Source: Thioalkalivibrio sp. ALMg11 (GTDB lineage Bacteria > Pseudomonadota > Gammaproteobacteria > Ectothiorhodospirales > Ectothiorhodospiraceae). From it: 64,000 nt of DNA. The notes beneath the pieces were generated by a model, which was not told the DNA's origin, did no database searches, and saw only the letters and a program-made list of their open reading frames with translations. The stretch is from NCBI RefSeq assembly GCF_000377905.1, contig NZ_KB898874.1, positions 124,001-188,000 on the forward strand, read 5' to 3'. Shown here one piece after another: positions 22,494 through 46,593 of the stretch. The position numbers were made by a program, and so were the translations under genes. The stretch's first letter is position 1. Each line of letters opens with the position of its first letter.

Positions 22494-23843
22494 ATGGCGG
22501 TCCATGAACTGGCCGCCGGGGTCGACTTTGCGGCCCTGGCGCGGCGATTCCCCGAGCGCTATCCCCACCTGCTGGAGTCGGCCCTGATCGGGCAGGCTCC
22601 CGCTCGTTTTTCCATCCTGTTCGCCTTCCCCGGCCGCACGTTCTCCAGTGCGGCCGGCGAAGACGTCCTCGGCGTGCTGGACCAGGATCTCTCGAGGACA
22701 CCACCACTCGACCCCGAAGACGCCGCATATGCCCATCTCCCGTTCCTCGGGGGATGGTTCCTGTATGCCGGGTACGAGCTTGCCTGGCGCATGGAGCCGG
22801 CCCTGGGTCACTGCCGATCCGACCCCTGGCTGCCGGATGCCCTGGTGACCTATTTCCCGGCGGCACTGATCCACGATCACCACGAGGGGACGACCTGGTT
22901 CGTCGACGAGGCAGGCGATTGCGCGCGCCTGGAGCGAGTGGAGTCGGACTGCGCGACAGTCCGGGGCCAGCCGAGTCCTGCATCCGAGCCGCTGCCCGCC
23001 CTGGCCCTTCACGAGGAGGACGCCCAGCGCTATCGCGACGCAGTGATGAAGGGTCTCGAATACATCCGTGCCGGCGACACCTTTCAGGTCAATCTGTCCC
23101 GCGAATGGCGCGCCACGGCCACGCAGCCGCTGGATCCGGCGGGGCTGTACGCCCGCCTGCGCGAGGCCAATGCCGCGCCGTTTGCAGCGTGGCTGCAACT
23201 CCCCGGCGCTCACGTGATCAGTTCCTCCCCTGAGCGGCTGGTGTCGGTGGAAAACGCCATGGTGGAGACCCGGCCGATTGCGGGGACCCGTCGCCGGGAT
23301 CCGGATGCGGAAGAAGACCGGCGTCTTTTTAGTGAGTTGACGTTCAACATTAAGGAACGCGCCGAGCATGTCATGCTCGTGGATCTGGAACGCAATGATG
23401 TGGGGCGGGTGGCCGAGATCGGTAGCGTGCGCGTGGCGGAGCTGATGACCATCGAGAGCTATCGCCGGGTGCATCACATCGTCTCCAGCATTGTCGGGCG
23501 CCTGCGCCCGGGCACCACCACGGCCGACATCCTGCGCGCGGTCTTTCCCGGCGGCACCATTACCGGCTGCCCGAAGATCCGCAGCATGCAGATCATCCAG
23601 GAACTGGAACAACAGGCCCCGCGTGGGGCCTATACCGGAGGCTGCGGGTACGTCAGCCGCCACGGCCGCATGGATACCAACATCCTGATCCGCACCCTCG
23701 TCGTTCGGGGGAACGAACTGCGCTTTCGGGCGGGAGCCGGCATCGTCGCGGACTCCGATCCCGAGCGCGAGCTGGAGGAGACCCGGCACAAGGCACACGG
23801 CCTGCTGGAGGCGCTGCAAGGGGCGGGGGAGAAGAGCCCATGA
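22494..23843 (+). CDS. pabB: Chorismate-binding enzyme, aminodeoxychorismate synthase component I-like
   Basis: A 449-aa member of the PabB/TrpE family. By position, overlapping pabC by ATGA, it should make 4-amino-4-deoxychorismate for folate. C-terminal motifs are present: FQVNLSREW, LVDLERNDVGR and FPGGTITGCPKIRSMQIIQE. The diagnostic PIKGT of classical PabB reads PIAGT here (Ala263), the TrpE-type residue. No pabA-like amidotransferase is beside it. PabB is the likeliest call on context, but anthranilate synthesis cannot be excluded. Confidence 0.8.
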   Translation: MAVHELAAGVDFAALARRFPERYPHLLESALIGQAPARFSILFAFPGRTFSSAAGEDVLGVLDQDLSRTPPLDPEDAAYAHLPFLGGWFLYAGYELAWRMEPALGHCRSDPWLPDALVTYFPAALIHDHHEGTTWFVDEAGDCARLERVESDCATVRGQPSPASEPLPALALHEEDAQRYRDAVMKGLEYIRAGDTFQVNLSREWRATATQPLDPAGLYARLREANAAPFAAWLQLPGAHVISSSPERLVSVENAMVETRPIAGTRRRDPDAEEDRRLFSELTFNIKERAEHVMLVDLERNDVGRVAEIGSVRVAELMTIESYRRVHHIVSSIVGRLRPGTTTADILRAVFPGGTITGCPKIRSMQIIQELEQQAPRGAYTGGCGYVSRHGRMDTNILIRTLVVRGNELRFRAGAGIVADSDPERELEETRHKAHGLLEALQGAGEKSP

Positions 23844-38784: not shown

Positions 38785-38860
38785 TCCCCGGTAGCTCAGT
38801 TGGTAGAGCGGGTGACTGTTAATCACTAGGTCGGCGGTTCGAGCCCGTCCCGGGGAGCCA
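38785..38860 (+). tRNA. tRNA-Asn (anticodon GTT)
   Basis: A 76-base cloverleaf with encoded CCA. The acceptor arms TCCCCGG and CCGGGGA pair; the D-loop has AGCTCAGTTGGTAGAGC; the anticodon GTT is at 38818-38820; the T-loop is GGTTCGAGCC. Its 3' 46 bases are the left copy of the element's attachment repeat, so the element's end rebuilds an intact tRNA. Confidence 0.97.
38815..38860 (+). repeat. attL core: 46-bp direct repeat, left copy
   Basis: Identical to 46541-46586. It spans the end of the anticodon stem, the anticodon loop, variable loop, T arm and acceptor 3' strand with CCA. The bases immediately outside differ (g/c to the left, t/g to the right), setting the limits. Confidence 0.93.
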
Positions 38861-38876
38861 TATTATCAACGACTTA

Positions 38877-38916: not shown

Positions 38917-38938
38917 GTAGTGCCTAGCGTAGTGCCTA
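38917..38938 (+). repeat. Putative integrase arm-type sites, left array
   Basis: Two copies of GTAGTGCCTA starting at 38917 and 38929, a 12-base period. The same 9-mer recurs at the other end next to the integrase gene. Confidence 0.7.
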
Positions 38939-39212
38939 AGAGGTCACCCTAGCCCGTTACGCAGTAACGCCAAGCCTTGCCGCTTCCAGGTCGTGACAAC
39001 CCTCCCCCTCTAGCATGAGCCACTGAGAGCCATTCTCAGCGGCTTTCTGTTCTTGTTGGTACGTTTCCCTATCTCTCCCCGAGAAACCGCCTTAGGCGCA
39101 CTCTCAGACGGCCCCACCATCCCCCATGAACGATTCTCATTCCGTGGTTAGCCCCTTCCGACATATAGGAAAGTCGTTTAGCCTAAAACCCACTCCATAC
39201 CGGGAAACACCC
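38939..39212. other. Non-coding left end of the element
   Basis: No gene is supported. A hairpin at 39018-39044 (11-bp arms with one mismatch) followed by a T-rich stretch could be a terminator. The rest has no clear feature. Confidence 0.4.
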
Positions 39213-39707
39213 ATGCGAGCAAGGTACGGCCTGACAGCCTTGACGGCGGTTACTCTCATTACACTAAGTCCGGTCGCTAACGCATGGGAGGTCTCATGTT
39301 CCGTCGATGACTTTACTGAGGAACAGACCTGCCGGATGAGTAATTACTCAGACGCCGGCGCCGAGCTACGCTTTCAATAAGTACACGGACCCGACGGCCT
39401 CTATGGCAGCATACTCAGACTCTCCATCCCTGACTCTACGTTAGAAGACTTCAATTTTCTCCAATTTCGAATTGACGACCTACCACATCGCGACATACAC
39501 GACGATTCTTCTTATATGTATACAGTCAGCCCTACTATATTCGCCAGTTTTGGGCACCCTTATGCAAAAGGCCTAGTGAAGGAAATCATCGAGGGTGAGA
39601 CCATTAATGTGCGGGTTACGGACCGCTCCGAAGGGTACAAGACCCTAACATTCGACACGGATGGGTTCGAAGCCGCTTGGCAACGCCTGAAGGAGGAATC
39701 CGAATAA
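39213..39707 (+). pseudogene. Secreted small protein gene with an in-frame TAA stop
   Basis: The frame reads 165 codons from ATG 39213 with a single in-frame TAA at 39378-39380. Before it: a signal peptide (hydrophobic LTALTAVTLITL, cleavage near VANA) and WEVSCSVDDFTEEQTCRM. After it the same frame continues without further stops through LRLSIPDSTLEDFNFLQFRI and on to KEESE at 39707. No frameshift is needed, so a nonsense mutation, a sequencing error or stop readthrough explains it. The W-x-V...C...C pattern is seen in small periplasmic proteins of unknown function. Cargo of the element by position. Confidence 0.65.
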
Positions 39708-39718
39708 CCAAGTCGTGC

Positions 39719-40099
39719 TCAAGGAAATTGGTGGATCGGCATAAAGTCGTCATCCACACCCCTCACCCTAATCTCTTCCAGCCGAAGACTTGAGCCGTTC
39801 ACGACACCCCGAGCAACGTAGTTACGCGCGGACAGCCCCGGATTATTTCCCGCCCCTCTGGGCTCATAACCTCCCGAAATCTCGACTCGGTTCCCACCCA
39901 GGGCACGGGCCGAGCAGTCAATGTGCGCACTGCGGTAGCTACCCCCGTACGCAGCCTCTAGCCGATTCTTCACGATTAAATTGCTGGTAGAGCAAACGGT
40001 GCTTTCCGTCATTCTCTCCACCAAGTAATTCCGTTCTGGTGGGTCACCACATGCGGCCAGCATCCACGGCATCAGCACCACGGCAAGTAGCTTTTTCAT
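39719..40099 (-). CDS. Small lipoprotein, function unknown
   Basis: A 126-aa protein with a lipoprotein signal: MKKLLAVVLMPWMLAACGDP, lipobox LAAC with Cys17. The mature part has two further cysteines and no family I recognise. It ends 12 bases from the secreted-protein gene, convergent with it. An envelope lipoprotein on a phage-like element could be a superinfection-exclusion or fitness factor; that is inference only. Confidence 0.7.
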   Translation of the reverse strand: MKKLLAVVLMPWMLAACGDPPERNYLVERMTESTVCSTSNLIVKNRLEAAYGGSYRSAHIDCSARALGGNRVEISGGYEPRGAGNNPGLSARNYVARGVVNGSSLRLEEIRVRGVDDDFMPIHQFP

Positions 40100-40261
40100 C
40101 GTCTCTCCCTATCTCATCGAACTAGACACGCTCGCGTCCCGTCCGGGTTGTCCAGCTCTTTTCTGCCTAACGCGTGTTTCCGAATGTAGTACCAAACCTC
40201 CCCTTCTGCATCGTGCATCTTTTGCATCCCGCCCTAGGTTCCGCGAGCGTACACGCACAAT

Positions 40262-40296
40262 GCGAATGATTCGCGTTCGCTAATTAAAAATATAAT
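40262..40296 (+). promoter_or_regulatory. Operator-like palindrome next to a TATAAT box
   Basis: A perfect 13-base palindrome GCGAATGATTCGC (40262-40274) lies 16 bases before TATAAT (40291-40296), about where a -35 would be. The region 40280-40300 is strongly AT-rich. This fits a repressible promoter in the element's control region; no repressor gene is identified with confidence. Confidence 0.4.
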
Positions 40297-40325
40297 AAAG
40301 CCCTTTTTCTTGGAAATTCTTTGCG

Positions 40326-40511
40326 CTAGCTTGGCTGGAATACACCTACAGGAAAAACCCCAGGCCGGGGCCGTCCAGGACGTTTCGGGCTTGGGGATTG
40401 TCCGTCACAAGGAGCGGAAAAAGAGTCAGACACCGAAGCCGGGACAACCACCCGAGAATGGCCCTTCATGGCTTGGCTGAAGATGTAAGCGGATTGCTTC
40501 GCGGTAAACAT
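40326..40511 (-). CDS. Possible small protein, unknown
   Basis: A 61-aa frame starting MFTAKQSAYIFSQAMKG with GAGAGG five bases before the ATG at 40511. The second half is Pro/Ser/Arg-rich and may be unstructured. It is the only leftward gene candidate between the two divergent control sequences, a place where satellites often carry a regulator. Coding status is uncertain. Confidence 0.35.
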   Translation of the reverse strand: MFTAKQSAYIFSQAMKGHSRVVVPASVSDSFSAPCDGQSPSPKRPGRPRPGVFPVGVFQPS

Positions 40512-40965
40512 GGAAACCTCTCTAGAGTAGTTAGGTGACACCAATAGGACCAAGAAAAAAGGAGATGTATCCGGAAAAAAACAAAGAGCGAGAGAATTCG
40601 TGTTTCTCTTTATTTTCCAACACTTACGTTCCTATCTAGTCACTATGGAAGGAAGGGAGAGAAATTCGGAGAATTCTTCACTGGAGAAGGCCGTGGTTTT
40701 CTCTGGCACTGAGTTAGTGCTAGCACCATTGTTCTATTTCACTACTCCGACGTTTTTCTTCTTGATTCAATCTCCTGCTCTTTAAGTCATTGATGTTGGG
40801 AACTTTGTTCCAGTAGTTTGTTCTTATATATAGGACGCAAGATACCTCCTTTCTTTGTCCTGTGTGTTCGGAGATTGGGCTGGCGGGAAGCCAGTCCGGT
40901 CCCTACTAAGGAGGCTGGTGAAGATGCCACAGGCCCCGGAGGGAGCCGAAACGAAAGGAGGAAAC
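40512..40965. other. AT-rich control region before the polymerase gene
   Basis: 454 bases without a convincing gene; a 61-codon frame at 40600-40785 lacks a good start and ribosome site. Visible are a 10-base palindrome GTGCTAGCAC (40717-40726), a promoter candidate at 40805-40832, and a hairpin in the leader around 40885-40903. It could also hold the replication origin, as it precedes the replication genes. Confidence 0.4.
40805..40832 (+). promoter_or_regulatory. Putative promoter of the replication/packaging module
   Basis: TTGTTC (40805-40810) and TATATA (40827-40832) 16 bases apart, in very AT-rich DNA, about 90-130 bases before the polymerase start. Confidence 0.45.
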
Positions 40966-42066
40966 ATGTACTACATACACGACCCGGAATATGCTTCCGA
41001 CTGCCTGCCAGGATTTAAGCAGGAAGCGAAACACCTACTATCCAAAATCTTGTTTGGTGCTCCCCTGCACTACGACATTCCAGGGCGCTACGCTTTCCCT
41101 CGCTCTTTTTTCAAGGCTGAAGGCCATTCAAAGGACACGTTCTATCGAATCAACGACAGGTTAAACCTGTTCGAGCCGTGTGGTGGCTCCTATGCAGGTG
41201 CTTTCCCTTGGTGTGAGACGGAAAACGCGGAGCGCCTTCGGGAGGAATATCCCCCCGCCCCGCTTTGGGAGAACAACCGAAGGGCCGTATTGAAGCCGCA
41301 GCGTGTTGGTGGGCTCTCGCTTCCCCCTGCTGTGGCTATTAGCACCCCTGCGTTGTTCATTTATGACGGGTGGAAATCTCTCGAAGCCAATAACGCCTTC
41401 TGGCGCAGCCAAGCTAATAAAATTCACCGGGTTTCGGCCAATACCACAAAACCGGGACACCTGCCCACCAAGTACCGCCAGGGCCAACATGGCCGCGTCT
41501 TTGGTGTTGGCCTCAATATCCAGAATCAAAAGAAGGAGCTACGCAGCGCCCTTCTCGCTGGTCAATTCAATTACGACTTTCAAAATGCTTTTTTCTCTAT
41601 CGCTGCCCAGCTAGGCCACTACCCCGCCTTCGCGGAATACGCCGAAGCGCCCCAGGCAGTCCGGGAATCTCTGGCCCGTGAGCTTGGTTGTACCCCCAAG
41701 TCCGTGAAACAAGCTCTTCTTGCCTTGATGAACGGAGCCACGCCCTACGGCCCTGCCCTGCGCGACACCTTGGGGGCGTCTGTTTGGGCTTTCTACAACC
41801 ATGCTTTCGTGCGCCGCCTCCGCCAGGACGCTAAGGCGCTGCGCAAGGACTTGGGGTGTTCGGTTCTGGGTAATCGCTTGATGCGGGAGGAGCACCGCTG
41901 CCTTGTGGCGGCAACGGAGGGTGTCCCGATTAGTGTTCCCCTCTTCGACGGCTTTGCCACGCCGCAAGACTTAGAGCCCGAATGGCTCGAAAGCCAAATA
42001 AACGAAAAGACCGGCTATACACTAAAAATAACAAAGGCCGATTATGGGTTTTCACGAAGCGAATAA
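40966..42066 (+). CDS. Putative TV-Pol-like polymerase (superfamily A-related), element replication protein
   Basis: A 366-aa protein with the motif order of family A DNA polymerases and T7-type RNA polymerases: HGR (175-177), then LNIQN (183-187) and KELRSAL (190-196) like the TGR...NLQN...R block; motif A NYDFQNAFFSI with Asp204; motif B as Lys248 followed by LMNGATPYG (254-262); motif C VPLFDGFATPQD with Asp328. No exonuclease domain. Minimal polymerases of this kind (TV-Pol family) are known from bacterial mobile elements and the Sputnik virophage and are thought to act as primase-polymerases. ATG 40966 follows AGGAGG closely; an in-frame ATG at 40924, with AAGGAGG nine bases upstream, is an alternative start. 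It overlaps the nuclease gene by 23 bases. Confidence 0.65.
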   Translation: MYYIHDPEYASDCLPGFKQEAKHLLSKILFGAPLHYDIPGRYAFPRSFFKAEGHSKDTFYRINDRLNLFEPCGGSYAGAFPWCETENAERLREEYPPAPLWENNRRAVLKPQRVGGLSLPPAVAISTPALFIYDGWKSLEANNAFWRSQANKIHRVSANTTKPGHLPTKYRQGQHGRVFGVGLNIQNQKKELRSALLAGQFNYDFQNAFFSIAAQLGHYPAFAEYAEAPQAVRESLARELGCTPKSVKQALLALMNGATPYGPALRDTLGASVWAFYNHAFVRRLRQDAKALRKDLGCSVLGNRLMREEHRCLVAATEGVPISVPLFDGFATPQDLEPEWLESQINEKTGYTLKITKADYGFSRSE

Positions 42067-42529
42067 AAAAGGAAAGTATGGCGAAGCCGTAACAAAGCAA
42101 TTCCTAGAGGCTAGGGGCTGTGTGGTGGTGGACACTAGCTCGCACCGGTTCTTCCAAGTGAACGGTGTTGATATCGTTTTTGAGAAGGACAACAAGGCTG
42201 GGTTGATGGACGTAAAAACGGATTACAACCCGTCTTCAAACCTGTTCATCGAAACCCTCAGCAACACAACAACAGAAAAGCCGGGTTGCATTTTCTCCAC
42301 CAAGGCCGATTGGTGGCAGTATTACAAAGTCGAACAAGACACAGCGTACTTGTTCACTCCCGCCGATATGCGCTCCCATATAGAAGATAACGTCTTTCGG
42401 GAAGTGTCCACCCAGACACATATAAACAATGCAGACTTCTACGAGACGCGGGGATTGTTGGTGCCTATTTCAGGTGCGCCAATACAGGCGACGTTTGAGC
42501 ATTATTCGGGATATTTTTCGGAACTCTGA
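42044..42529 (+). CDS. PD-(D/E)XK-type nuclease (resolvase/restriction-fold)
   Basis: A 161-aa protein whose first 60 residues follow the PD-(D/E)XK plan: Glu14 in GKYGEAVTKQFLEARG, Asp43 in NGVDIVFEK, and Asp56-Val-Lys58 in LMDVKTDY. The spacing fits small Holliday-junction resolvase or endonuclease-like folds. The C-terminal 80 residues are not recognised. The gene overlaps the polymerase gene by 23 bases, so the two are probably translationally coupled and act together in replication or recombination. Confidence 0.6.
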   Translation: MGFHEANKKGKYGEAVTKQFLEARGCVVVDTSSHRFFQVNGVDIVFEKDNKAGLMDVKTDYNPSSNLFIETLSNTTTEKPGCIFSTKADWWQYYKVEQDTAYLFTPADMRSHIEDNVFREVSTQTHINNADFYETRGLLVPISGAPIQATFEHYSGYFSEL

Positions 42530-42582: not shown

Positions 42583-42942
42583 TTGGAACCTAACAACAAG
42601 CCAACACGTTGGTATATGACACTCAACGAGCTAGCGGAGCGGTGGGAAACCACACCCGAGGCGATTGTACATTTTGCGGCCGAAGGCTCTTTGCCTCAGC
42701 CAAATCATCCTTACGGCTGGCATGTAACGGATGTCCTTTTGTTTGAGATGTACAGCACGCCCGAATGGCCGGATTGCATAGAAACGCTATCGACGGCCCG
42801 CGCCATCGGCCTAAACACCCGCACACTGAAAGCCTACAAAGGTTTGGTTTTCCGGTATGTGTCTGAGTGGTTTGGAGAAACAGACAAGTATGATGAGGCC
42901 CTTTCGATTTACCGAGAAGCAACAGGAGAAGTAAATGCTTGA
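42583..42942 (+). CDS. HTH-like small protein (TTG start)
   Basis: A 119-aa protein. Start is TTG at 42583 with GGAGG seven bases upstream. The N-terminus WYMTLNELAERWETTPEAIV resembles an excisionase/MerR-like winged HTH, but the rest (GWHVTDVLLFEMYSTPEWP) is not recognised. It may be a regulator or excisionase. It overlaps the next gene by 8 bases. Confidence 0.5.
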   Translation: MEPNNKPTRWYMTLNELAERWETTPEAIVHFAAEGSLPQPNHPYGWHVTDVLLFEMYSTPEWPDCIETLSTARAIGLNTRTLKAYKGLVFRYVSEWFGETDKYDEALSIYREATGEVNA

Positions 42943-43171
42943 TGAAAATAACGAGCGCGAGGAATTACAAGAGCAAATCCAACGGAAAGAGGAAGAGCTA
43001 GCATTTTCTATTTATGAAAAACAAAAGCAGGAACAGCTAGAAAAATTCCGAGCGAAGAAGGAAGAGCCGCCGAAGCTCACCGGCGTGCGGCGCTCTAAAC
43101 TCAGTCAATGTGATAAGAAACGCATTATCCACGAATTCGGCATTGATGTTTACAACGAGTTGCCACTGTAA
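42935..43171 (+). CDS. Small coiled-coil protein with scaffold-like C-terminal tail
   Basis: A 78-aa, highly charged protein: predicted coiled coil (about 5-45), then KKRIIHEFGIDVYNELPL at the end. The last 26 residues align with the end of the next gene's product: both have RS, a Lys near the middle, then I-x-x-x-G-I-(D/E)-x-YN-(E/Q)-LPL. AGGAG precedes the ATG. The layout recalls SaPI CpmB, a short protein sharing the capsid-binding end of the helper's scaffold; that parallel is inference. Confidence 0.6.
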   Translation: MLDENNEREELQEQIQRKEEELAFSIYEKQKQEQLEKFRAKKEEPPKLTGVRRSKLSQCDKKRIIHEFGIDVYNELPL

Positions 43172-43182
43172 CAGGAGAGAAA

Positions 43183-43791
43183 ATGGAAGAGTACGCACAA
43201 GAAGAATTTAACAACGAAGAAGAACAACAGCCCTCCCTAGAAGAATTGCGGGACATGTTGGCAGACCGCGAAGCTGAGCTAGAGAAGGTCCGGGATGCTT
43301 TGCATAATTCAAATGAGGAGGCGAAAACCAAGCGCCTCAAACTTAGGGAGCGCGAGCAAAGCCTTGCCGATAGTGAAGCTGCCGTGTCTGAATATCAGAA
43401 AGAGTTGGCCCAATATCAAGACAAAGTGGGCAAGCTAGACCAGGAATCCAAACAACACCTAAAGTCAGCGGAGATTGCCACAGCCATCGCTCAGCATCGG
43501 GGCGTGCCTGAATTGCTCCGCCCTGCCTTGGAGCAAATGGCGAGCGTTGAAGATGGCGCGGTTGTTATTAAGGGCCAGCCGGTTGAAGAGTATGTTGCTT
43601 CGATGAAAGAGAACCCAACGTTCTCTGGTGCCTTCATGGGCCGGGGAATGAGTGGTGGTGGACTGAAAAGTACAACGCCTTCACATGGCCCAAAGATTCC
43701 AACAAAGCCACGCAGCCAAATGACAAACCAAGAAAAGGAAGCTGTAATTACACAGCACGGAATTGAAGCCTATAATCAGCTACCGCTATGA
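43183..43791 (+). CDS. Phage scaffolding-like protein
   Basis: A 202-aa protein: acidic N-terminus, long coiled coil (about 18-95), then AIAQHRGVPELLRPALEQMA, VEDGAVVIKGQPVEEYVASM and FSGAFMGRGMSGGG, the pattern of tailed-phage scaffold/GP20-like proteins, and a C-terminal tail EAVITQHGIEAYNQLPL shared with the preceding gene. The stop overlaps the sigma4-like gene start (ATGA). A scaffold without any capsid gene fits a satellite that redirects helper assembly. Confidence 0.6.
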   Translation: MEEYAQEEFNNEEEQQPSLEELRDMLADREAELEKVRDALHNSNEEAKTKRLKLREREQSLADSEAAVSEYQKELAQYQDKVGKLDQESKQHLKSAEIATAIAQHRGVPELLRPALEQMASVEDGAVVIKGQPVEEYVASMKENPTFSGAFMGRGMSGGGLKSTTPSHGPKIPTKPRSQMTNQEKEAVITQHGIEAYNQLPL

Positions 43792-43940
43792 CTACTACAG
43801 CAAAACAAGAGCGGGCTACAGTGTTGGCGCTTCGAGAGCAGGGCCTAAAATATAGGCAAATTGCCAAGCTGTTAGATTTGCCGATAGGCACAGTTAGAAG
43901 CCGAATTTTTCGAGCGCGGAACGAGAAAAATGGCGAGTAA
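43788..43940 (+). CDS. Stand-alone sigma-70 region 4-like HTH, 50 aa
   Basis: A 50-aa protein starting MTTTAKQERATVLALREQG. Residues 21-44 read KYRQIAKLLDLPIGTVRSRI then FRAR, which matches the sigma70 region 4 helix-turn-helix (the IA..L..P.GTV.SR..RAR pattern). It overlaps scaffold-like (ATGA) and terminase-like (11 bases) genes, so translation is coupled. There is no region 2, so it is not a full sigma factor; it may guide RNA polymerase or bind DNA at packaging sites. Confidence 0.7.
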   Translation: MTTTAKQERATVLALREQGLKYRQIAKLLDLPIGTVRSRIFRARNEKNGE

Positions 43941-44466: not shown

Positions 44467-44850
44467 TCATTCGGCAGGCCACGTTCTTTCAATTACGAAC
44501 GTTTCGCCATACTTTTCTTTATTCCTATCCGCGATATCTCTTACCTGAGAGCTTGGAATAAGTCGAAAATTATTTACAGCCTTGCAATTATTGTATGTTC
44601 CGCGCATCTCCCGTGAGCTGATATGGTAGCCTCGATTCTGCGCTTGCTGCCTCACCGTTGCATTACAATATTCGTTTATGCGCTCCCAGTGCATCATGTA
44701 ATCCGAAGAACTTCCTGAAAGAAATTCGGATTTATCAATAATCTCGTAATAACTATATGTTGGTGCGCTTGACTTGGGGCTCGTAGCGTTACACCCAACT
44801 AGAAAGAATAATAAAGCCAGATAGAATGCTGCGCCAGATAAAAGCTTCAT
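44467..44850 (-). CDS. Small lipoprotein, function unknown
   Basis: A 127-aa protein. Start at 44850, with AGGGG upstream, gives the lipoprotein signal LLSGAAFYLALLFFLVGCNA, Cys in LVGC. The frame is open 38 codons further upstream, but that would bury the signal. Two more cysteines in the mature part; no family recognised. It is unlike the 39719 lipoprotein in sequence but similar in size and position at the edge of the element. Confidence 0.65.
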   Translation of the reverse strand: MKLLSGAAFYLALLFFLVGCNATSPKSSAPTYSYYEIIDKSEFLSGSSSDYMMHWERINEYCNATVRQQAQNRGYHISSREMRGTYNNCKAVNNFRLIPSSQVRDIADRNKEKYGETFVIERTWPAE

Positions 44851-44969
44851 TAGTGCCCCTAAGTGATAGGTCAAAAGATGCCTCGTTCTTCGAGAACGAC
44901 GCCTATTGCTCTTTTCGTAATCTAACAAGCCGAAGAAGAATAGAAAAGCCATAAGCATCACCAAAGGTC

Positions 44970-46354: not shown

Positions 46355-46422
46355 GTAGTGGCTCCCGTAGTGCCTAACTTGGGTGCCGTAGTGCCTTTTG
46401 TAGTGCCTTTCCGTAGTGCCTA
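46355..46422 (+). repeat. Putative integrase arm-type sites, right array
   Basis: Copies of GTAGTGCCT begin at 46367, 46388, 46400 and 46413, plus a variant GTAGTGGCT at 46355. The 12-13 base periods (46355/46367, 46388/46400/46413) match the left array. They lie in the integrase promoter region. Confidence 0.7.
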
Positions 46423-46540
46423 ATTGTGCTACAGGCTGACCAGGAAGGCAACGGAAAGAGAGTGTAAGTGTTTGGTGGCGAGTTAGTTTTTGGGAAATGG
46501 TCGAGAGCGGGAGAAACGGCCTGAAGCAGCGCGGAAGGTC

Positions 46541-46586
46541 ACTGTTAATCACTAGGTCGGCGGTTCGAGCCCGTCCCGGGGAGCCA
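46541..46586 (+). repeat. attR core: 46-bp direct repeat, right copy
   Basis: Exact copy of the tRNA-Asn 3' end (38815-38860), without the 5' half, so it is not a functional tRNA. It marks the right boundary of the element. The 154 bases between the arm array and here show no gene. Confidence 0.93.
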
Positions 46587-46593
46587 GATACAG

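Follow-up and report, generated by a model that had tools for sequence, protein, structure and literature searches.

A TV-Pol-type family A polymerase encoded by a putative integrated phage satellite of Thioalkalivibrio sp. ALMg11

The 64,000-nucleotide stretch of Thioalkalivibrio sp. ALMg11 analysed here (the window; contig NZ_KB898874.1, positions 124,001 to 188,000) contains a 7.7-kb element framed by a 53-bp direct repeat of the 3' end of a tRNA-Asn gene, the two copies being 96% identical. The element carries small cargo genes, a leader, an operon of seven open reading frames (ORFs) and an integrase gene (Table 1). Four junctions in the operon overlap, and the remaining gaps are 53 and 11 nt. 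Its first ORF, which encodes 366 residues, is probably a TV-Pol with an N-terminal domain, acting as the replication enzyme of an integrated phage satellite.

Table 1. Features of the element and its integration site, in window coordinates
Feature	Position	Strand	Basis
tRNA-Asn(GTT), integration target	38785..38860	+	ARAGORN, Rfam RF00005; 3' part forms the left attachment repeat
Left attachment repeat, 53 nt	38811..38863	+	Direct repeat, 96% identity with 46537-46589
Candidate left arm sites of the integrase, two GTAGTGCCT repeats	38917..38937	+	Motif count
Left cargo: signal-peptide-like ORF 39126-39380 and ORF 39516-39707	39126..39707	+	By eye
Lipoprotein-like small ORF, 126 aa, cargo	39719..40099	-	By eye
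Leader of about 870 bp, candidate replication origin/regulatory region	40100..40965	.	Inference
TV-Pol-type family A polymerase, 366 aa	40966..42066	+	Open frame, alignment, AlphaFold, fold matches, profile
PD-(D/E)XK nuclease, Holliday-junction-resolvase-like (E14, D43, D56-x-K58)	42044..42529	+	
MerR/excisionase-like helix-turn-helix (HTH) protein, 119 aa, candidate Xis/regulator	42583..42942	+	Weak matches
78-aa protein, scaffold-like C-terminus, CpmB-like arrangement	42935..43171	+	Last 33 residues
Capsid scaffold protein, 202 aa	43183..43791	+	phrog_206, E 2.8e-19; scaffold of Nitrincola phage 1M3-16
50-aa stand-alone HTH protein, sigma-70 region 4-like, between scaffold and small terminase genes	43788..43940	+	PF08281, E 2.5e-11
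Terminase small subunit, 158 aa	43930..44406	+	phrog_4044, E 1.3e-31; PF20901, E 4.6e-6
Lipoprotein-like small ORF, 165 aa, cargo	44467..44964	-	No Pfam family, two chance-level PHROGs
Tyrosine integrase, 457 aa	44970..46343	-	PF00589, E 8.2e-20; PF13356, E 5.3e-16
Candidate right arm sites of the integrase, four GTAGTGCCT repeats	46367..46421	+	Motif count
Right attachment repeat, 53 nt	46537..46589	+	Direct repeat of the left copy

Results

The polymerase gene begins with an ATG preceded by AAAGGAGG at about 40954-40961, and its frame is open until the stop. The motifs on which the initial annotation had based a family A assignment are indeed present: R177 (HGR), Q186 (LNIQN), R193 (KELR), D204, K248, NGATPYG at 256-262, and D328 (LFDGF). 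Sequence searches against named families were essentially empty, with no match in Pfam or NCBIfam and a single weak one in PHROGs (E 0.0074); searches of the PDB sequences returned nothing with P0001 or with the alignment profile described below. Therefore, the claim was tested through relatives and fold.

Relatives were found at 14 loci among GTDB representatives (13 proteobacterial and one from Rhodothermales), on one IMG/VR contig (L024), on two Polaromonas plasmids and in two other whole genomes. A five-sequence alignment (A1) led to the representative loci and to L024, and the plasmids were reached by tblastn. Single-sequence scans of IMG/VR detected no relative of the polymerase, the nuclease or the scaffold, and alignment searches of the same database returned L024 alone for the polymerase. 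No match to either the ALMg11 or the L024 TV-Pol was obtained by tblastn in the phages collection. The working alignment (A4) comprises 15 rows, namely the ALMg11 protein, L024 and 13 of the 14 representative relatives; it excludes L023, whose match is short and whose frame loses the motif B region, as well as P0001, P0002, L002 and L003.

In all 15 rows, Y170, R177, D204, N207, Y225, R233, K248 and L251 are invariant, and G176, Q186, G199, H209 (F in the ALMg11 protein), G257, E309, D328 and T349 are nearly so. The motif set is thus conserved beyond chance. Eight and nine residues after K248, 13 rows have Y-G and the ALMg11 protein has N-G, L015 ending earlier. The proposed form of motif C holds in part: LFDGF with D328 is present and FDG recurs in L024, but HDG is commoner among the relatives (among the 14 rows that reach this position, ten HDG, one HDS and one YDG). 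The protein is more than a minimal polymerase core, since the relatives match into its first ~100 residues (2-357 for L024, 9-255 for L015). A tree of 18 of the 19 available rows, with the partial L015 omitted, places the ALMg11 TV-Pol as sister to that of L024 (support 100/99), to which it is 32-33% identical.

The AlphaFold model agrees with this assignment, its structural matches pointing to a family A fold. Ranked by Z, the PDB matches are headed by Pol theta, with T7 DNA polymerase and Taq at the same level, and virophage replication proteins are among the viral matches. D204 lies in a predicted strand (201-205) and D328 in the turn of a predicted hairpin (324-332), giving a family A palm with two conserved, putative metal-binding aspartates. 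The invariant R177 falls between predicted strands 169-172 and 178-181, and helices 127-137 and 144-157 are predicted before the palm, where a two-helix thumb is expected. The 2008 description of TV-Pols by Iyer, Abhiman and Aravind names two palm aspartates, a two-helix thumb before the palm, and fingers with RxxxK and a conserved Asp (PMC2579912). In the fingers of our alignment, an invariant R is followed by K 15 residues on (R-x14-K) in 15 of 15 rows, and no fingers Asp is invariant. Kinship with the TV-Pols, as the initial annotation had put it, is borne out by the A4 profile, which matches Ma-LMM01 at 23010-23576 (E 2.0e-6); nothing else in the 162,109 bases scores an E of 10 or less. 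The matched region is gp030, which adjoins a transposase and is presumably the TV-Pol meant in the 2008 paper.

The nuclease encoded immediately downstream has the E...D...(D/E)xK arrangement on a restriction-endonuclease fold. IMG/VR alignment searches link it to L024 and to three further contigs (L046-L048), which by eye carry a DnaB-like helicase and further DNA-metabolism genes; no TV-Pol was noticed among their listed ORFs, and no profile was run on those contigs. L024 is a phage contig of 9,479 bp (IMGVR_UViG_3300000477_000055). It resembles the element in having the sister TV-Pol followed by a homologous nuclease, and differs by the genes that come after them, in the order terminase small subunit (TerS), portal, scaffold and major head, together with a terminase large subunit (TerL) gene identified by eye; no integrase was noticed. 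The L024 nuclease gene is broken by about 146 nt (2613-2762 of the contig). Because the polymerase-nuclease pair is common to both loci while the PHROGs differ (TerS 4044 and scaffold 206 in the element, 51 and 233 in L024), the pair seems to travel jointly between phage and element, and the packaging genes seem to come from another source. The 2008 paper states that TV-Pols are never in conserved neighbourhood linkage with nuclease domains (PMC2579912). Such linkage is now seen at two loci, which we consider few. The reading of L024 as a complete circular genome was dropped, the contig being without a terminal repeat; the ORFs at its two ends both resemble virion proteins and share a phase, for which the chance is one in three. 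MT836592 (L026), considered as a TV-Pol phage, was also dropped, having by eye a head operon only.

The 202-aa scaffold protein is homologous to the scaffold of Nitrincola phage 1M3-16 (28.8% identity over 85%, E 2e-5; alignment score 183, the best of 300 shuffles reaching 90), whose gene sits between the portal and major head genes. In the 78-aa protein, resemblance to the 202-aa scaffold is confined to the 33 C-terminal residues (score 72; 5000 shuffles reached 41 at most). The 1M3-16 scaffold C-terminus scores 40 against the 78-aa protein and 47 against the element scaffold, with a best shuffle of 35 both times; in all three comparisons, 0 of 5000 shuffles attain the score. The DNA encoding the two C-termini is identical at 48 of 99 positions; therefore, any duplication is old. 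Three further resemblances were not counted. Between the element scaffold and the L024 scaffold, 1 of 300 shuffles reached the score; for the 78-aa protein, 54 of 300 did so against the L024 scaffold, and 39 of 300 against the 1M3-16 scaffold when the protein was compared over its whole length. The element scaffold also matches tail tape-measure and minor head PHROGs weakly (E 0.0028 and 0.021), which is ascribed to its coiled coil.

The TerS assignment exceeds the PF20901 cut-off narrowly (27.1 bits against 27), and homologues occur in 79 phage records. By homology, the element thus encodes a predicted packaging function and a predicted capsid-hijacking pair. Nitrincola phage 1M3-16 (NC_024217.1), from an alkaline hypersaline lake, has homologues of both the element TerS and the element scaffold. 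It may serve as a model for the type of helper.

Several features indicate that the element is integrated. The GTAGTGCCT motif occurs seven times in the window (0.13 expected), six of the copies lying just inside the two ends of the element, and these repeats are likely the arm sites of the integrase. In 2-kb windows, GC content is 0.47-0.53 within the element and about 0.61-0.70 outside, mixed windows excepted. Among 30 genomes, 26 (ALMg11 included) have a flank match, and 11 loci from other genomes were returned. In seven of these sister loci (L029, L030, L031, L033, L034, L036 and L038) the site is empty, both flanks being joined through a single tRNA-Asn. In L042, L044 and L045, the tRNA and the right flank are separated by some 4 to 10 kb of other DNA; L043, represented by its right part only, bears an integrase at 37% identity. 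TV-Pol, scaffold and TerS have no match in these last four stretches. The tRNA-Asn gene is an integration hot spot in the genus, with differing inserts of about 4 to 10 kb among sister genomes.

Pfam and PHROGs scans covered ten of about 12 likely genes of the element, 39516-39707 and 39719-40099 being left out. Among the ten, no TerL, portal, capsid or tail family was convincingly matched, and no lysis gene or structural gene besides the scaffold homologue was recognised. Together with the attachment repeats, the integrase, the empty sites and the TerS and scaffold homology, this supports the initial annotation's view of a satellite-like element with a TV-Pol and its own TerS. Its suggestion that the TV-Pol stands in for the primase/helicase usual in satellites also agrees with the scans, in which no primase or Rep family was matched.

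As for the remaining parts, the leader contains only short ORFs of 56-75 aa, and no convincing iterons were found in it, its repeats being unremarkable. Neither the promoter scan (10 against 5.1 expected) nor the terminator scan (17 against 9.7 expected) was used. The two left cargo ORFs share one frame with a single in-frame stop between them, and this copy of the cargo gene may be interrupted.

Discussion

The element can be compared with several known systems. It resembles the TV-Pol family as described in PMC2579912, including the polymerases of Sputnik virophage and Ma-LMM01, in the family A core, the two aspartates, the hairpin arginine, the extra N-terminal region and the mobile-element setting. 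It differs in the length of 366 aa, in FDG instead of HDG, in the adjacent nuclease, in R-x14-K instead of RxxxK and in that no D5 helicase was matched. In CcPol-MP of the staphylococcal cassette chromosome SCCmec (PMC7581432) and in pairs of PolA with a single-stranded DNA-binding protein (SSB; PMC10061031), a family A polymerase is described as replicating a mobile element, as we propose here. Those elements are not phage satellites, and in the ten ORFs scanned neither a helicase nor an SSB/OB-fold family was found, no structure-based search being included.

Phage-inducible chromosomal islands (PICIs) and Staphylococcus aureus pathogenicity islands (SaPIs), as portrayed in PMC6092414 and PMC5644958, share with the element a terminal integrase, replication genes, a capsid-modifying gene with a scaffold C-terminus, TerS and the lack of any other recognised structural or lysis gene. 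Their replicon is of the pri-rep type; the ALMg11 element instead has a TV-Pol and a resolvase-like nuclease, the TV-Pol occupying the position of the pri/rep module, and it also carries a whole scaffold homologue. We do not file the element as a PICI. The PICI attachment site is described as never occupied by prophages (PMC6092414), and the tRNA-Asn site holds other, unclassified DNA in sister genomes. Phage-inducible chromosomal minimalist islands (PICMIs) are likewise small integrative satellites, PICMI115 having six genes, but they carry AlpA and a primase and are reported to lack homologues of terS, sid or ppi as well as capsid-remodelling genes (PMC10803314).

We infer every functional step of the proposed cycle, and the existence of a helper, as follows. 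Upon helper-phage infection, the integrase, perhaps with the HTH protein encoded at 42583-42942, would excise the element from tRNA-Asn. The TV-Pol would prime and/or extend element DNA, perhaps at the leader, with a host or helper helicase, and the Holliday-resolvase-like nuclease would debranch concatemers. The satellite TerS may then steer the helper TerL onto satellite DNA, and the scaffold and the 78-aa protein could vie via their common C-terminus for the helper capsid protein, so that shells are favoured or resized for the satellite. In SaPI1, CpmB (72 residues) and the scaffold of phage 80alpha are described as sharing a C-terminal RIIK motif and as rivals for the capsid protein (PMC5644958). 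By analogy, the 78-aa protein may have a similar role.

A number of observations weigh against the satellite reading. The searches turned up no relative of the element as a whole. Among 47 genomes of the order, and among 369 of the class, the TV-Pol occurs in ALMg11 alone; among 398 of the phylum it occurs in three, ALMg11 included. The TerS, looked for in 58 relatives, was again found in this one genome. There is also no sign of a resident helper, as the element's own scaffold is the sole phrog_206 match in its genome, and the one TerL family tried there gave weak, non-specific matches only, with 11 of 14 controls also matched. The missing helicase family in the ten ORFs points the same way, and the assignment of 42583-42942 as Xis or regulator is weak (MerR_1 E 0.016, below the cut-off; PHROG 7735 excisionase E 0.27). 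As to the polymerase, its fingers are without RxxxK as worded in 2008; Ma-LMM01 gp030 likewise has, by eye, no R four residues ahead of the matching K, and the motif may be placed otherwise than aligned here. Model-normalised Foldseek TM-scores are at most 0.46 among the 50 PDB matches listed, two of the five AlphaFold models are less confident (64.6 and 59.0), and the tree branches are long (1.86 for ALMg11, 1.84 for L024).

It is less likely, and in our view unlikely, that a small prophage with a TV-Pol lost its TerL, portal, capsid, tail and lysis genes and left the element as an immobile remnant. In favour of this, the genes for scaffold and TerS are those of phages, L024 has the polymerase-nuclease pair beside a head module, an in-frame stop interrupts one cargo ORF at the left end, and no sister copy was found that could show selection. 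In phage head operons, TerS usually lies ahead of the scaffold. The element has the opposite order to that and to L024; therefore, simple deletion does not yield it. Moreover, the overlaps and short gaps of the operon leave no room for fragments, the integrase, the two attachment repeats and the arm sites at either end are all intact, and the TerS and scaffold PHROGs are not those of L024.

Integrative elements with an integrase and a TV-Pol, of the kind known since 2008, could also have captured scaffold and TerS as anti-phage decoys that are never packaged, and such homologues could interfere with a phage. An AlpA-like HTH gene (by eye) accompanies a TV-Pol in L010 (5557-9053), L007 (9199-13265) and L014 (7116-9002), from two Sphaerotilaceae and one genome of the same class as ALMg11; no packaging genes were noticed there, and L010 and L007 also have an integrase. 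These loci are read as small integrative elements with a TV-Pol. We nevertheless hold the decoy explanation to be distinctly unlikely, as two proteins with scaffold tails and a TerS that share an operon with the replicon suit packaging better. That the polymerase serves repair or defence instead of replication is very improbable. Family A includes repair enzymes, and Pol theta heads the PDB matches, albeit in a tie; however, the gene heads the operon after a long leader and adjoins that of the resolvase-like nuclease, and no other replication family was matched in the element. TV-Pols were predicted to have primase-polymerase activity (PMC2579912), and CcPol-MP, in 2020 the sole characterised TV-Pol to its authors' knowledge, is described as a primase-polymerase (PMC7581432).

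The combination of TV-Pol and TerS in a satellite is little described, as the initial annotation had anticipated: none turned up in the open-licence PMC papers searched, and the words "terminase" and "satellite" are absent from the main texts of PMC2579912 and PMC10061031. Virophages are parasites of viruses and likewise carry TV-Pols. With a probability a little below even, the element may represent a distinct satellite family, with a TV-Pol, its own Holliday-type resolvase and capsid assembly redirected by a duplicated scaffold, as a prokaryotic counterpart of the virophages. The TV-Pol-resolvase pair would then be a replicon cassette that small tailed phages and the satellites of such phages exchange. 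A satellite of tailed phages with a TV-Pol, if true, would broaden the replicon types of satellites and provide a small testable system for TV-Pols, parallel to virophages, and the pair of scaffold and 78-aa protein, by analogy, predicts CpmB-like capsid diversion in an unrelated setting.
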